From Clostridia bacterium (GTDB lineage Bacteria > Acidobacteriota > Terriglobia > Terriglobales > Acidobacteriaceae): a stretch of 64,000 bases of DNA. The DNA is taken from the NCBI GenBank assembly GCA_035561135.1, contig DATMYA010000048.1, forward strand, positions 124,001 through 188,000. Direction: 5' to 3'. Shown here piece by piece: positions 31,227 to 38,490 of this stretch. Each line of letters starts with the position of its first letter. The first letter of the stretch is position 1. A model generated the notes under the pieces. That model was not told where the DNA came from. It saw nothing but the letters and a program-made list of their open reading frames with translations, and did not search any database. Made by a program: the position numbers and the translations under genes.

Positions 31227-31573
31227 AACTCCTCCGGATGCCGGCCCGCTCTGCGCTTGACCGGAACTGCGTCCCCAGTTCTTTGGCTCACAGCTCTCTT
31301 GATAACTTACCAGCGCCCAAGCTGCCGTTCGAATCCTAAGTGTTATCCTTGAACTCAGCAGCTCCTATCCTGCACTAAGACGGGCACTTGCACCGTACGC
31401 TAAGATTCGCGCACCTTGCCAGCCGAAACCGTAGCAAAGGGAACCCCGAGAAGCAAGGTTACCTCAGGACGCCGTATTAACCGTCAAGGTACGCTATCGC
31501 AAGTTTTCTGCCGCCCATGCAACTGAGGGGTTGCATCTCTTTTGGTGCATCTGTACCATCACGACGCGAGAAA
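31227..31573. other. Divergent intergenic region before aroDE
   Basis: About 345 bases between divergent genes. No repeat, riboswitch or coding gene recognised. Confidence 0.4.
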
Positions 31574-33205
31574 ATGAATGACTCCCCGACAACTTACGCC
31601 AGGCGATTGCTGCCAATACGGCTGCCGAGAGTCTGCGTAGCCGTTACCGGATCCGACATTAACGAGATGGTCGAGAAGGCCGAATCGCTGGTCCGCGACA
31701 ATCCGCTGATCGAGTTTCGGCTCGACTATCTCAAGAATCCTGCGACCGCTTACCAGCGCTTGCGGCGTCTGTTCGAGTACCGTCCCGACGCCATAGCCAT
31801 CGCGACCTGCCGCCGTGCGGTGAATGGTGGCAAGTTCCGCGGCTCCGTCGCCGCCCAGCTCGAGATCCTAACGAAAGCCGCTGCAGCTGGCTGCCAGATG
31901 GTCGACGTGGAACTCGAAACCGCCGCAGCCCTGAAGCCTGCCGAAATCGAGAAGCTGCGTTCTCGCGCCTCGCTCATCCTGTCCCATCACGATTTCCGGG
32001 CCACGCGCAAGATTGACGAGACCTTTGACCGGATGAAGCAGTTCCCCGCCGACTTCTTCAAGGTCGTCACCACCGCCACGAGTCTTTACGACAACGTGTT
32101 GATGATGAAGTTCCTGCAGCAGAACGGCGATCGCCACTCTCTCATCGGCCTCTGCATGGGCGAGCAAGGCATTATCAGTCGCGTGCTCGGTCTCCGCGCA
32201 GGTAGCGCGTTCACGTTCGTCGCCGCCAGTGCAGGCGAAGAGACTGCCCCCGGACAGATCACCGCGCGCGAACTGCGCGACACCTACCGCATCGAGCAGG
32301 TCGATGCCGCCACTCGCGTATACGGCGTGGCCGGCGACCCCGTCTCGCAATCCCTCTCGCCCGTCATGATGAATGCGGCCTTCCGGCGCGAGAACGTGAA
32401 CGCCGTCTATCTCTCGCTACACGCCAAAAGCCTCGATGACCTGCTCCGCTGCGTGCGCGACATTCCCATCCATGGCCTCAGCATCACCATGCCTTACAAG
32501 CAGGCCATCGTTGAGCATCTCGATAACAGCGACCCGCTCACGCAGAAGGTTGGCGCCTGCAACACGGTCGTACGATCGCAGGACGGCAAGATCTACGGCT
32601 TCAACACCGATGTCGCCGGAATCATCAGTCCGCTCGAGCAGCGCATCGCGCTCAGCGGCGCTCGCGTGCTGGTCATCGGCGCTGGCGGAGCCGCACGTGC
32701 GGCGGTATTCGCCCTGCGCAGCCGCAATGCCGAAGTCTTCATTCTGAACCGCACCGCGGCCAACGCACAGAAACTTGCACGCCAGGCGCACGCGAAGACC
32801 GTTAAACGCGCAGATATCAAAAAGCTCAGCTTCGACATCATCATCAACGCCACTCCGCTCGGCATGGGCGCCAACAAGCAGTCGCCGCTCGATGAGAAGG
32901 AAATCCGCGCCAAATATGTTTTCGATCTCGTCTACAACCCGGCGGAGACGCGCCTCATGAAGATGGCGCGCGCACAAGGCCTGCATGTTATAGGTGGAAT
33001 CGAAATGTTCGCGAACCAGGGCGCACGACAATTCGAGATATGGACCGGCAAGCCTTCACCCAAGGACGAGATGCGCTACGTCGTCAGCCGTGCCTTAGAG
33101 GACCGAGCAGCCTCCGAAGAGAAGACGAACGGAAAACCCGCAGCGAAAGCCGCGACCAAAGCCGTCGCCCGCACGGCCAACAAAACTGTTCAACGCAAGA
33201 AGTAG
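31574..33205 (+). CDS. aroDE: Bifunctional 3-dehydroquinate dehydratase / shikimate dehydrogenase
   Basis: 543 residues from the ATG at 31574. Residues about 20-240 are a type I dehydroquinase: IEFRLDYL, LILSHHDF (catalytic His) and FFKVVTTA (Schiff-base Lys). Residues about 250-510 are shikimate dehydrogenase: GDPVSQSLSPVMMNAAF, SITMPYKQAI (catalytic Lys), GACNTVV, FNTDVAGI, and the NADP site VIGAGGAARAAVFAL with NRT. It performs two consecutive steps of the shikimate pathway, a fusion also known in plants. A Lys/Ala-rich tail (KPAAKAATKAVARTANK) follows. Confidence 0.96.
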   Translation: MNDSPTTYARRLLPIRLPRVCVAVTGSDINEMVEKAESLVRDNPLIEFRLDYLKNPATAYQRLRRLFEYRPDAIAIATCRRAVNGGKFRGSVAAQLEILTKAAAAGCQMVDVELETAAALKPAEIEKLRSRASLILSHHDFRATRKIDETFDRMKQFPADFFKVVTTATSLYDNVLMMKFLQQNGDRHSLIGLCMGEQGIISRVLGLRAGSAFTFVAASAGEETAPGQITARELRDTYRIEQVDAATRVYGVAGDPVSQSLSPVMMNAAFRRENVNAVYLSLHAKSLDDLLRCVRDIPIHGLSITMPYKQAIVEHLDNSDPLTQKVGACNTVVRSQDGKIYGFNTDVAGIISPLEQRIALSGARVLVIGAGGAARAAVFALRSRNAEVFILNRTAANAQKLARQAHAKTVKRADIKKLSFDIIINATPLGMGANKQSPLDEKEIRAKYVFDLVYNPAETRLMKMARAQGLHVIGGIEMFANQGARQFEIWTGKPSPKDEMRYVVSRALEDRAASEEKTNGKPAAKAATKAVARTANKTVQRKK

Positions 33206-33266: not shown

Positions 33267-34379
33267 TCAGGAGACTTCTTTTCGCTTTGCGGCGATCTCT
33301 GAGTAGAGCACTACGCGATTCCGCCCGCGAGATTTTGCTTCATAGAGTGCAACGTCGGCGAACTCTATCAGGTCGCGCTTGAACTGCGCGTCACGGTCGA
33401 AACAAGCGATTCCTATGCTGACGGTCACGTGTTCGATCTCGCTTGGCGAACCAGCAAAGAATTTTGCCTGCTCGATCGCACGGCGTAATCGTTGTGCCAC
33501 AAGCAGAGCGCCTGGGCCGCTGGTTTCCGGCAGAATGATTACGAATTCCTCGCCACCATAGCGGGCCGCCGTATCAATTTCGCGCATGTCCTTCATCAGC
33601 ATCGAAGCCACGTCGCGCAGCACCTGGTCGCCCACGTGGTGGCCGTAAGTGTCGTTGAACGTCTTGAAAAAATCGATGTCGATCATCAGCAGCGACAGGA
33701 GCGTTTTTTTACGCTCGGCGCGCTTGATCTCCAACTCCAGTTGTTGTTCGAAGTATCCGCGAGTTTTTAGCCCCGTCAGGTAGTCTGTGAATGCGAAGCG
33801 GATCAGCCCTTCGTTGCCGAAGTCTCGCGTCAGCAGGTTTTCGGCGACCAGCGTCAGAATCCAGAGCAACTGTGCGTCTTCCTGGGTAAAGCTGTCCGGA
33901 TCGGCACTGTAGAGTTGCAGCGAGCCCATCACCTTGTTGCTTACGAGCAGCGGCACCACCAGTGCGGCCTTGCAGTTCAGGCCTGCGAGCAAAGCGTCCG
34001 CCTGCACGTTGCACCCGGTGGTCACCAGCAGCGGACGGCCGTATTTTGCCGCCCAGAAATTCAGAATGTTCCCCCTCGTGTACGTTTCCAGATCGGGATC
34101 TTCCATGCCACGAGTCACACGCAAATGCATCTGCTGCTGGTCTTCGTCCCAGAAGTAAACCATGCCACGACGGAAGCTGGCGATCTCGGATGCAAAGTCG
34201 CAGAGCATGTTCAGGGTGGCATCGATTTGCATCTGCAAACCGGCCAACATGCTCAGGCGCAGCAAGACGTTCACCTCCCGCCAGCGTCGTGCAACCGTCT
34301 CTTCGCCCAACTCCGAAAAAACCTCGACTACAAACTTTTCAGGAGGACAAGAGTCAGCCGCTGTGTAATCTAAGGACAT
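33267..34379 (-). CDS. Diguanylate cyclase with GAF sensor domain
   Basis: 370 residues. A GAF domain (about 45-195; FASEIASFRRGMVYFWDEDQ, AALVVPLLVSNKVMGSLQLY) is joined to a GGDEF domain (about 205-365). The active site is RYGGEEFVIILPE, a GGEEF variant normally active. The inhibitory I-site RxxD is intact (REID, five residues before GGEEF), so product feedback is likely. LLMIDIDFFKTFNDTYGHHVGD supplies the metal Asp. No membrane helix: a cytosolic sensor. It makes c-di-GMP from two GTP. Divergent from the HisKA gene. Confidence 0.94.
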   Translation of the reverse strand: MSLDYTAADSCPPEKFVVEVFSELGEETVARRWREVNVLLRLSMLAGLQMQIDATLNMLCDFASEIASFRRGMVYFWDEDQQQMHLRVTRGMEDPDLETYTRGNILNFWAAKYGRPLLVTTGCNVQADALLAGLNCKAALVVPLLVSNKVMGSLQLYSADPDSFTQEDAQLLWILTLVAENLLTRDFGNEGLIRFAFTDYLTGLKTRGYFEQQLELEIKRAERKKTLLSLLMIDIDFFKTFNDTYGHHVGDQVLRDVASMLMKDMREIDTAARYGGEEFVIILPETSGPGALLVAQRLRRAIEQAKFFAGSPSEIEHVTVSIGIACFDRDAQFKRDLIEFADVALYEAKSRGRNRVVLYSEIAAKRKEVS

Positions 34380-34793
34380 TCGATGGGCTCGTACCAGCGT
34401 ACGTACACACTCCTAGCTCAGCCGTACATGGCAGCACGAAGTCTGCCAATCTCCAGTATCGATACTTTCCATGCGGCGCTTTACTGTGCAACTCCTCTTT
34501 CCTTTAGCGACTCCCAATCAGCCAAACAACTCACGGATTCCCAGCGAGGCCCGTAGCAGAGTTACCCATTGCAAACGTACGAGTTCCCGAATTGTGAAAA
34601 CCGGGCGTCGAAGAGGGAATGCAGATTCACACTTTAGTTCCGCCGGACTCGATATCAGGTAACTCGAGCCTAGTAGAATCAGCGCCCTACGGAACTTGCC
34701 CATTTTGGAACAGGTCGTGCAGCTACTCTCGCCGGAGTAGATACGGCGGAGTAGATATTGCTATTGCAAGAAGATAAAGAATGGAGGTTCCCG
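34380..34793. other. Divergent intergenic region between the cyclase and HisKA genes
   Basis: About 410 bases. No coding gene, repeat or sigma-54 (-24/-12) site was found by eye. Confidence 0.4.
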
Positions 34794-35060
34794 GTGCATG
34801 ACGATTTGATTGCCGAACTTAGTCACCAGATCAATAGCCCTCTGGCCGCTATTCGGAACGCGATCTACCTGGCCGCGAGCCGCACAGCCGATCTAGAAGT
34901 GCGGCGATACTTGGAACTAGCGGACTCGGAAGTGGTTATCATCGCCAGCGCCTTGCGGAATGCCCGCAGCTTCCATCCAGCAGCAAGGAAGGCGCAGGGC
35001 TCGGCTGACATGCAGGCGCAAGCGGCAAGTACGAAAGCAAAACGAGTAGCAGCAGCGTAG
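34794..35060 (+). CDS. Stand-alone HisKA (histidine kinase dimerisation/phosphoacceptor) domain protein
   Basis: 88 residues from the GTG at 34794, chosen because TGGAGG lies 6 bases upstream; the frame continues upstream to a TTG. Residues 1-55 match the two-helix HisKA domain: LIAELSHQINSPLAAIRNAI holds the H-box, with the phosphorylatable His about residue 10 and the NSPLAAI turn, followed by a second helix (RRYLELADSEVVIIASALRN). The residue after His is Gln instead of the common Glu or Asp. No ATPase domain (N, G1, G2 boxes) exists here or downstream in any frame. The tail is Ala/Lys/Gln-rich. It may be a phosphotransfer or kinase-interacting protein. Confidence 0.75.
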   Translation: MHDDLIAELSHQINSPLAAIRNAIYLAASRTADLEVRRYLELADSEVVIIASALRNARSFHPAARKAQGSADMQAQAASTKAKRVAAA

Positions 35061-35395
35061 CCCTCCCCCTAAGTAGTCTCCCCTCAAGATGATGCCAATC
35101 TGTAGAGCAGCGAATACGGCGCTGCGTGCTTAAATGCGAGTTTGTTGTCAACGCCGGCTACGAAAATGAATTGATAGGGGCTTTAAAAGCAAACTACTCC
35201 CGACGGAAACAAGTCACCGCCAGTATATGTATGAAGCAAATCACCCGTGCGGCGGCAATGACCTTTATCTCGGGTCCGCGACTTCGTTCCCGGCCCCGCC
35301 CAACTCGTGAAGTCTTCCTTCAAGCTTCCGGCACAGGCCCGCTGATGATGTGCGTTTTTGCTGCGAATGCCGCTGCGAACCGTGTGCTGTCTTCC

Positions 35396-35497
35396 AGAGC
35401 GTAGCGCAGTGGAGTCGCGGAGTCGAAGGACCCCTATCATCTGCACTGAGCTGGCAAAAGGGGTCCTTCGACTCGGGCTTACGCCTTTGCGAAAAAG
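35396..35497. repeat. Dispersed hairpin element, near-full copy
   Basis: A perfect 15-bp inverted repeat AGTCGAAGGACCCCT (35421-35435) / AGGGGTCCTTCGACT (35459-35473) around GCACTGAGCTGGCAAA. The same core and spacer occur at 48031 and 53931. The outer GTCTTCC arm is degraded here. Confidence 0.8.
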
Positions 35498-35506
35498 CTC
35501 GGCAAC

Positions 35507-35565
35507 TCAGTAGGTAGCTTAGTAGGTCAGTAGGTCAGTAGCTCAGCGACTTAGTAGCTCAGTAG
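35507..35565. repeat. CTCAGTAG short-word tandem tract
   Basis: Words CTCAGTAGGTAGCTTAGTAG, GTCAGTAGGTCAGTAGCTCA, GCGACTTAGTAGCTCAGTAG in tandem: a degenerate 8-9-bp unit, 10 bases after the hairpin element. Related tracts flank the copies near 48.0 and 60.0 kb. Confidence 0.75.
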
Positions 35566-35798
35566 CCCCGACTGCCTGCCTTTAGCGCCTGCGCAGTCGT
35601 CTGCTGCCTGGTGTGCCAAATGCCGCGTCCATACGGCACTTCCATTGCTATTTCCGCATCACAGGATTACTATGATGATGGACCTGATACCGTCCACTTT
35701 CTGCGATATTCGTTCTTCTCACCGCGTAGCAGTCGGCCCACTGAACGGTTTTACCGAGGCGCGTCTCCCCCCGCCCGGGCGAAATTGGAGAGACGAAG

Positions 35799-36533
35799 AT
35801 GGCGTGGTATGCATACTGCATCACTGAGCAAAGTATCTTTCAGAACGTTCGAGTCCGTCGCCCATTCCCCATTGAGAATCTTCGAGGCATCAACGGGACG
35901 CCCGTGTTTGGCTATCCGAGCGGCGAGTTTGCTGTGATCGTCAGCGAATACTCGCACGAATCGGCGCTCACACAATCCTCCGTGGTGGAACACGCGCGTG
36001 TTGTGAGCGAGTGTTTCCGCAACTCCACCGTGCTGCCATTCCGGTTCGGCACCATTTTCGAGAACGACGACGCGCTTCGACAGGCGGTTCGCACCAACCG
36101 CAAGGCTTTCGGAGATAGCGTAGCGCATCTGCGCGGCAAGGCCGAAATGCACATCAAGGTCACCGTGCGTGGAGATGGTTCAATTCAGACCTTTTCCGAC
36201 GTGCTGCCGGCGCAGGCTGGCGGCGAGTACCTTATGCGGTTGCGCGAGAAAGCCAGTCGCGATCGGGAACGGCAGACCAAGGCACGCGCACTCTCGGTTC
36301 AGGTGCACAAGCTTTTCAATCCGCTTGAAGAAGAGGTTAGTTGCAAGAAAGTTGTTGCGGGCGGCATGACTATCGACATCGCCCACCTGATCGACACCAA
36401 GCAGATTGAGAAGTACCAGAACCGCTACAGCACTGCCAGTCGCCAACTTAAGAATTGCGAATTGGCGATCAGCGGCCCCTGGCCGCCTTACCACTTCATG
36501 CCTGGCAAACTACGAACAGTCGGGAACGACTGA
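35799..36533 (+). CDS. GvpL/GvpF-family protein, without other gas-vesicle genes
   Basis: 244 residues covering the whole GvpL/GvpF domain: MAWYAYCITEQ at the N-terminus, VLPFRFGTIFEN (about 78-89), then RGKAEMHIKVTVRG (about 113), GGEYLMRLREKASRD (about 140) and the family end CELAISGPWPPYHFMPG (about 222). In gas-vesicle clusters these proteins assist shell assembly. Here no gvpA, gvpN, gvpK or other gene is present, so another role is likely. GAGAGACG ribosome-binding site. It is followed by a terminator and a sigma-54 response regulator on the same strand. Confidence 0.9.
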   Translation: MAWYAYCITEQSIFQNVRVRRPFPIENLRGINGTPVFGYPSGEFAVIVSEYSHESALTQSSVVEHARVVSECFRNSTVLPFRFGTIFENDDALRQAVRTNRKAFGDSVAHLRGKAEMHIKVTVRGDGSIQTFSDVLPAQAGGEYLMRLREKASRDRERQTKARALSVQVHKLFNPLEEEVSCKKVVAGGMTIDIAHLIDTKQIEKYQNRYSTASRQLKNCELAISGPWPPYHFMPGKLRTVGND

Positions 36534-36987
36534 TTTGGGGAATCCAAGAAGGCGGCCATCCAGGCCGCCTTTCACTTTGCGTAATTGAGCCACTGAGCTG
36601 CTGAGCCCCTAAAGCACCCAGCTACCCCGAAGAGTGGGCACTGCCAGGCTAACTTGGCAGTTATCATCCCCCTGTGCTGCCCAACGAAGAAAGCAATCCT
36701 TGGCTAGCTTTAGGATATTTTTGCCAATTCTTGGAATTTCTATAGAATGTCTGCATCTAAGCCGGTGGGTGTGGATGGTGGTGCCCCTCGGTCCCCCTCT
36801 GACGTGGCCCCGATCCACCGATCTCCACGCCCCGCGGGCGACCTTTTGTTGGATGTGGTGATTAACTCCTAAACAGGTTCGACTCCGTTCGTAGCGATTC
36901 CAGGTACGGTTTTCACAAAGTTCCATAGCCGCGGGACGAGAGAGATGTCACTGCGATTCCGCAGCTTGTATCGGAGGGGCTGAAGGA
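36534..36987. other. Spacer upstream of the sigma-54 response regulator
   Basis: About 450 bases. It contains the GvpL/F terminator, a short CACTGAGCTGCTGAG tract (36585-36608) and an inverted repeat CTGCCA/TGGCAG near 36643-36661. No -24/-12 site fitting GG-N10-GC was convincing. Confidence 0.45.
36549..36571 (+). terminator. Terminator of the GvpL/F gene
   Basis: Stem AAGGCGGCC/GGCCGCCTT with loop ATCCA, followed by TCACTTTG; 16 bases after the stop. Confidence 0.8.
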
Positions 36988-38490
36988 ATGGTGCCGACGC
37001 CGAAGACGAGAGTGCTGGTGGTTGATGACGATGCCGCCACGGCCAGGTTTCTGAGTTCGTATCTGATTCGCAGGAATTTCGACGTAAGCGTCGCAGCGAC
37101 GGGCGAAGAAGCCATTCGCATGTTCCGCGTCTACGATCCCACGCTAGTGCTGCTTGATCTCGCCATGCCGGGCATGAGTGGAATCGACACCCTTGAACGC
37201 CTTAAGCAGATTAAGCCGGAGGTTTCCGTAATCATGCTCTCTGCGCAGAGCAGTCCAGAGATCATCTTCAAAGCCTCCAAGCTCGGCGCGGACGATTACA
37301 TTGGTAAGCCATTCGAGCCCAAGGAACTCGACCTGCGCATCAGCAAGGTTCTGGAAAAACAGAGACTCGTAACCGAAGTCACTCAATTGCGCGACCAGGT
37401 GCGCCGCCAGTCCGACTTCACCATGCTCTTCGGCACGAGCCCCAAGATGGAAGAAGTCAAGAACACCATCGAGCAGGTGGCAGACACCACCGCGACGGTC
37501 CTCGTACGCGGCGAAAGCGGCACCGGCAAAGAGGTCGTGGCGCGCATGGTTTACGCACAGTCATTGCGCCACGAGAAGCCGTTTGTGAAGGTAAATTGCG
37601 CCGCTATTCCACATGAGTTGCTGGAAAGCGAACTCTTCGGGTACGAACCCGGAGCTTTCACGGGCGCCAATCGCCAGAAGCTCGGCAAGTTCGATCTGGC
37701 AAACAACGGAACCATCTTCCTCGACGAGATCAGCGAGATGCACCCGTCGCTCCAGGCGAAGCTCCTGCACGTTTTGCAGGACGGCGAATTCGCCCGCCTG
37801 GGAGGTAAGCGCGATATTGCGGTCGACGTTCGCGTCCTCGCCGCCACCAACAAACCGCTCGAACGGGCCGTGGAAGAAGGCCTTTTCCGCGAAGATCTTT
37901 TCTACCGCCTGAACGTCGTTACCATACACATACCGCCGCTTCGCGAGCGCCGTGAGGAGATACCCATCTTCCTCGATTTCTTCCTGCGCAAATACAGCGA
38001 GTTCTATGGCAAAACACCGGCTCAGTTCAGCGACTACGCCGTCGGGCGAATGATGGAATATACCTGGCCGGGGAACATACGAGAATTGGAGAATCTCGTA
38101 AAGCGTTACACCATCGTGGGCAATGAGGCGCAAATTATCCGCGAACTCTCTACCCACAAACCCATCGTCTCGTCCCTGTCGGGGAATAGTCCCATCTGGG
38201 GCATTAAGGAACCGGCGATTGCTGCGCCGCCGCATAACTCGCAACCGGCTGTTCCCGCACCCGTCTCCAATGCCATGGGCGAAATCGAAATGCCTTCTCT
38301 GCTGGAGATTGGAAAACGCGCCGCCATGCTCGCCGAGCGCGAAGCGATTGAACGCGTACTTGCCCAAACGCGTTGGAATCGCAGGCAAGCCGCCAAGATC
38401 CTCAAGATCAGTTACAAGGCCCTACTCAACAAACTCAAGGCGATGGAAGAACAGAATCAGGCGAATCAGGCTAAGCAACATCCTGCTTAA
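36988..38490 (+). CDS. Sigma-54-dependent response regulator (NtrC/AtoC type)
   Basis: 500 residues in three domains. Receiver (about 7-125): VLVVDDDAATARF acidic pocket, phospho-Asp in LVLLDLAMPGMSG, and Lys in IGKPFEPKEL. AAA+ sigma-54 activator (about 145-375): Walker A GESGTGKEVVARM, sigma-54 contact loop GAFTGAN, Walker B GTIFLDEISEMHP, and arginine-finger region FREDLFYRLNVV. A Pro-rich linker leads to a Fis-type helix-turn-helix (about 445-490; WNRRQAAKILKISYKALLNKL). It activates sigma-54 promoters when phosphorylated. No full kinase is adjacent; the solo HisKA protein lies 1.9 kb upstream. Confidence 0.96.
   Translation: MVPTPKTRVLVVDDDAATARFLSSYLIRRNFDVSVAATGEEAIRMFRVYDPTLVLLDLAMPGMSGIDTLERLKQIKPEVSVIMLSAQSSPEIIFKASKLGADDYIGKPFEPKELDLRISKVLEKQRLVTEVTQLRDQVRRQSDFTMLFGTSPKMEEVKNTIEQVADTTATVLVRGESGTGKEVVARMVYAQSLRHEKPFVKVNCAAIPHELLESELFGYEPGAFTGANRQKLGKFDLANNGTIFLDEISEMHPSLQAKLLHVLQDGEFARLGGKRDIAVDVRVLAATNKPLERAVEEGLFREDLFYRLNVVTIHIPPLRERREEIPIFLDFFLRKYSEFYGKTPAQFSDYAVGRMMEYTWPGNIRELENLVKRYTIVGNEAQIIRELSTHKPIVSSLSGNSPIWGIKEPAIAAPPHNSQPAVPAPVSNAMGEIEMPSLLEIGKRAAMLAEREAIERVLAQTRWNRRQAAKILKISYKALLNKLKAMEEQNQANQAKQHPA

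Follow-up and report, generated by a model that had tools for sequence, protein, structure and literature searches.

A conserved stand-alone HisKA gene, probably a functional signalling component and no kinase remnant

Does an open reading frame whose one recognisable domain is HisKA encode a working signalling protein, or is it what is left of a broken kinase? The question is raised by a short gene in the window, the 64,000-nucleotide stretch of DNA that was analysed. An earlier note had described an 88-residue HisKA-only frame at 34794-35060; these coordinates were borne out, and an HMM search matched PF00512 and no other family (Table 1). The match covered residues 3-50 of 88 (E 2.1e-6) and scored 28.1 bits, where the cut-off is 26.9. 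HATPase_c was missing from the protein in the Pfam search, so that it is not an orthodox histidine kinase, and the Spo0B Pfam models gave no match. Only sub-threshold matches, all to whole kinases, were obtained with NCBIfam. The DHp hairpin is very short, with 10 residues before the His and the kinase lead-in missing. A phmmer search of PDB with the single window sequence gave no match, a profile search matched kinases weakly, and the one contig-database scan returned a single match, in an Elusimicrobia MAG.

Table 1. Features of the solo HisKA locus, in window coordinates
Feature	Position	Strand	Remarks
GAF-GGDEF gene	33267..34379	-	Divergent neighbour; kept in the syntenic locus
GGAGG, Shine-Dalgarno-like	34783..34787	+	6 nt 5' of the solo-gene GTG; read from sequence
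Solo HisKA (DHp-only) gene	34794..35060	+	88 aa, GTG start; ORF, Pfam, orthologues and selection
Two-helix DHp hairpin, residues 2-30 and 34-59	34797..34970	+	AF2 model, core pLDDT above 90
His11 codon, would-be phospho-acceptor	34824..34826	+	Invariant in 6/6 orthologues
Variable Ala/Lys-rich tail of solo protein	34971..35057	+	Alignment; low-confidence in model
GvpL/GvpF-like gene	35799..36533	+	Downstream of solo gene in all six genomes
NtrC-type response regulator (REC, sigma-54 AAA+, Fis HTH)	36988..38490	+	Candidate partner, by position only

A broken kinase might have left part of its ATPase domain nearby. Forty CA domains taken from the nearest kinases were made into a profile, which was run over all six frames of 34380-35798, the 1.4-kb gap between the GAF-GGDEF and GvpL/F-like genes. 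No ATPase remnant was detected (best E 1.1, score -2.6), as had been claimed for the downstream DNA.

Orthologues were then sought. A first search, of 100 relatives that mostly represented each genus by a single genome, yielded kinase-type longer frames only. When the search was widened to 398 genomes of the family to which the window genome belongs, five short-frame relatives ranked above the kinases (E 8e-11 to 1e-17). Identity to the window protein over the core was 46-60% for the short-frame relatives (55-60% in four) and about 30-45% for the kinases. The five orthologues (loci L163, L164, L165, L166 and L167, in genomes G192, G175, G223, G145 and G100, respectively) are 75-89 residues long, each stops shortly after the second helix, and they are 44-49% identical to the window protein over the full length. 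Three of them scored 35.5, 29.0 and 27.4 bits with PF00512, and one fell just under the cut-off at 26.0. GGAGG or GGGAGG also precedes the gene in G192, G223 and G145. The solo gene is thus known from six genomes in four genera of one family, the window's genus and three further ones. The GvpL/F-like gene follows it directly in all six genomes, and a divergent GGDEF gene lies on its other side in four orthologous loci, as in the window; the G100 contig starts too near the solo gene to show it. Five orthologues of similar length rule out a sequencing error, frameshift or misassembly, and no relative joins the solo HisKA to an ATPase domain.

The codons of the gene showed signs of purifying selection. 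For the G223-G145 pair omega was 0.22 at an unsaturated dS of 0.31, and for G192-G145 it was 0.11 with saturated synonymous sites; synonymous sites in the remaining pairs were nearly or fully saturated, which leaves one unsaturated pair and makes the other omega values merely suggestive. The solo gene is therefore real and lies at a conserved chromosomal position, and we conclude that it more probably encodes a functional signalling component than the relic of a kinase, in keeping with the proposal of the earlier note that it is no fragment.

The AF2 model of the window protein is a hairpin with a low-confidence tail. Its best PDB matches in Foldseek were the GacS DHp bound to RetS, the ERS1 DHp and CpxA, with weak E-values (best 0.048), as expected for a short helical hairpin. 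The predicted fold is a DHp hairpin, which may dimerise into a four-helix bundle.

Residues invariant in all six solo proteins include L5, L9, H11, P16, L17, A19-A23 and Y25-A27 in the first part of the hairpin, and D33, Y39, L40, A43, E46, I50 and L54 further on. The His is thus conserved at one and the same locus, two points on which the earlier note had called for a check, although with only six sequences its invariance is weak evidence. The residues beside it are less constant. Position +1 reads Q, E, Q, E, E and V across the six proteins, so that an acidic residue is missing in three of them; the Gln stressed in the earlier note is real in the window protein but is not a family trait (Q in two, E in three, V in one). 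Position +4 is S except in one protein, which has N. H-box motifs in the family include HQINS (window), HEINS, HEIHS and HVVNN, and the full HE/DxxN/T motif, an acid at +1 together with N/T at +4, occurs in none of the six. In the nearest full-length kinases +1 was E in 78 of 78 and +4 was N in 77 of 78; the H-box pattern used for these kinases fixed the His and the Pro at +5 and admitted sets of residues at +4 and +6, and because it left +1 unconstrained that position was free to vary. As judged from these alignments, the His is kept in the solo family while the side residues tied to autokinase and phosphatase chemistry are relaxed.

The gene is distributed patchily. In a HisKA-core tree, which is rough because it has few columns, the six solo sequences formed one group among HEINNPL-type kinases (support 95/66). 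In a GvpL/F tree the carriers fell in four separate lineages, each with non-carrier sisters. The DNA upstream of GvpL/F at 59 other loci, among them those of six g50 genomes, three g55 genomes and one g89 genome, showed no trace of the solo gene; contig ends interrupt a few of these loci. G262 is a near sister of G192, and its gap can be aligned with a carrier's on either flank but not across the stretch that holds the solo gene. Since the gene is absent from these 59 loci and from close sisters, any role that it has is accessory. Its patchy presence at one locus in one clade suggests either an old gene that was lost repeatedly or recombinational exchange at the locus. A plasmid origin was rejected: no plasmid match was found, and all six copies lie at one locus.

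The neighbourhood offers a candidate partner, the NtrC-type regulator. The earlier note saw no obvious kinase beside it, which holds within the window and fails for several relatives, where a kinase lies between the GvpL/F-like and regulator genes (loci L086, L087, L088, L092, L093, L164, L245 and L264); its REC-GAF-HisKA-HATPase domains were assigned by eye from translations. This kinase is missing from the window (36533-36988) and from many other relatives, and the regulator gene comes directly after the GvpL/F gene in 25 of 74 loci, with or without the solo gene. The idea that the solo gene replaces the lost locus kinase found no clear association among the 74 loci. In G029 the neighbour of the regulator is a divergent kinase of PAS type whose H-box reads HEINNPL, the class to which the solo protein belongs; this hints, faintly, at a regulator able to pair with that class. 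A functional link between the solo protein and the regulator at 36988 is proposed solely from gene neighbourhood.

The GvpL/F-like gene itself is present in 382 of the 398 family genomes. No match to gvpA (PF00741) was found in the window's genome or in most of the relatives sampled, and the product is apparently a core protein outside gas vesicles. Between the solo and GvpL/F-like genes lie a perfect 16-nt inverted repeat, GAGTCGAAGGACCCCT (35420-35474), seen among the fetched loci solely in copies of the same place, and an 8-bp tandem array, GTAGCTCA (35514-35566). Beyond the GGDEF gene, 31517-33205 encodes a putative AroD-AroE fusion of the shikimate pathway.

What, then, might the protein do? 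Without an ATP-binding domain it cannot autophosphorylate alone. In Spo0B and ChpT, which lack autokinase activity, a DHp fold serves purely for phosphotransfer (PMC6136694, PMC3433190, PMC5231405). We propose with moderate confidence that the solo protein is a genuine stand-alone DHp acting as a His-to-Asp phosphotransfer module or a phosphoryl sink. As a dimer it would form a four-helix bundle resembling the DHp core of Spo0B or ChpT and expose one His on each face. A receiver domain or a kinase would place a phosphoryl group on the His, and the protein would then pass it to a receiver, for example that of the NtrC-type regulator at the locus, or drain it from one. Here dimerisation, phosphorylation and partner are what we infer. 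An invariant His with relaxed +1 and +4 positions is expected if the His is kept for phosphotransfer and the autokinase and phosphatase residues have been released; among the functions considered, this pattern appears to fit phosphotransfer or a phosphate sink best.

The main rival is that the hairpin is a docking decoy, which pairs with the DHp of a kinase or covers a receiver and so blocks or tunes signalling without handling phosphate. Hetero-pairing is plausible because HEINNPL-type kinases, the closest relatives of the solo protein, abound in the same genomes. In the best structural match the GacS DHp is crystallised together with RetS, which inhibits GacS autophosphorylation by direct interaction (PMC5992135), and relaxed residues at +1 and +4 would suit a non-catalytic role. 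A decoy would not need the His, however, which is invariant in all six proteins, and we consider this explanation possible but somewhat doubtful.

A stand-alone phosphatase that acts on a response regulator through its DHp face appears improbable. There is a split system in which free CheA3 acts as the main phosphatase, and HE/DxxN/T is retained in 711 HisKA proteins that lack HATPase (PMC3591291). The window protein has HQINS, however, and the loss of the full motif throughout the solo family makes a phosphatase role less likely.

The chances are slim that the protein supplies the DHp of a split kinase and is phosphorylated in trans by a CA domain on another polypeptide. Such kinases exist, and EnvZ is functional when split (PMC3591291); for the Mycobacterium split pair Rv0600c/Rv0601c, a literature search found both genes named in two papers only, once in each. 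A search among the HATPase_c proteins of the genome found no dedicated CA partner. Every strong kinase-type HATPase_c lies within a frame of at least 308 residues, and the small HATPase_c frames, of 188, 195 and 239 residues, are weak (27-32 bits), have the look of RsbW-type anti-sigma factors and are nowhere near the solo gene. A partner is unlikely because the search of the genome turned up no small, strong kinase-type HATPase_c protein, and the missing acidic +1 in half of the solo proteins also speaks against this role.

A chance frame or decaying remnant, for example of a lost REC-GAF-HisKA-HATPase kinase, might be suspected from the patchy presence of the gene and the absence from the window of the kinase that some relatives carry, but it is refuted for practical purposes by the similar-length orthologues in four genera with their sign of purifying selection, by the lack of any ATPase remnant in the surrounding intergenic DNA, and by the locus kinase itself, which has a HELRTPL H-box (HQINSPL in the solo protein), lies on the opposite side of GvpL/F and is present together with the solo gene in G175.

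Other short HisKA-like proteins occur in the family. A second one in the same genome (LAHDLSNSIETIMQASYLL, G000:C90:33972-34226; also L106:1501-1758 and L100:3895-4230) occurs as a short frame, one copy per genome, in 42 of 60 sampled family genomes, its own genome counted; the 40 genomes searched from outside the family showed no homologue. An alignment of 28 members of this second solo family has no variation in the His, Leu, Ser and Asn of the H-x-L-S-N motif and hardly any in the Asp after the His; the acid and Asn are thus kept, whereas the window family has released both. The members scanned fell below the Pfam cut-off, and the model is a confident hairpin (mean pLDDT 87), matched best among solved structures by the DHp regions of kinases. 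The second family is more widely conserved than the window family. A third short frame, LVHNLRQPLSTIE, is nearly identical in two genera (G000:C26:3551-3808, L099; G015:C56, L168:4155-4412); the small contigs that carry it are 95-96% identical in DNA at both ends, and it belongs either to a mobile element or to a mis-binned contig. Another short protein, with HDLRQPL, is encoded on G037:C53. In G177 a 155-residue frame (L170:4702-5169) has a full HEINNPL HisKA and no visible ATPase domain; it has the appearance of a truncated kinase and in this differs from the solo family. With at least two conserved solo families, we tentatively raise the idea that bare DHp hairpins form an independent signalling class in this family, as minimal dimeric phosphotransferases or as kinase modulators.

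Should the solo protein transfer phosphate, few dimeric His phosphotransferases would be smaller, and it would show that selection can maintain a DHp hairpin that has no ATPase-like domain. As a decoy, it would be a natural dominant-negative fragment of a kinase turned into a gene. HisKA-only frames are easily dismissed as fragments and merit testing, for which six syntenic members make this family practical.

The closest sequence relatives, the HEINNPL-type PAS/GAF kinases of the same family (about 30-45% over the HisKA core), have sensor and ATPase domains, Glu at +1 and Asn at +4; the solo proteins have none of these domains. The RetS-GacS pair illustrates how one DHp can regulate another kinase by pairing, although RetS has the full make-up of a hybrid kinase-like protein, with degenerate HATPase and REC domains, and the solo protein is a bare hairpin. 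Spo0B of Bacillus shares the DHp hairpin, there in a dimeric four-helix bundle, and the lack of autokinase activity. It has in addition a second, CA-like domain, whereas the solo protein has no second domain of any kind. Its gene adjoins obg and ribosomal (L21/L27) genes, and the solo gene adjoins GGDEF and GvpL/F genes. ChpT of Caulobacter has a class I kinase-like DHp with, as here, a Pro at +5 from the His (Pro38 and His33 in ChpT), but also an atypical Bergerat (ATPase-fold) domain and known partners, CckA and CtrA. A search of the literature for a 'HisKA-only' protein found no match. HisKA proteins without HATPase account for 1556 of 42417 in SMART, about 3.66% (PMC3591291), and share with the window protein a HisKA on a polypeptide that lacks an ATPase domain; the window protein differs in being nearly all hairpin, conserved in position and without HE/DxxN/T. 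What was known is HisKA without HATPase as a statistical class, and what is new is a syntenic family whose members hardly extend beyond the hairpin and have kept the His and lost the motif.
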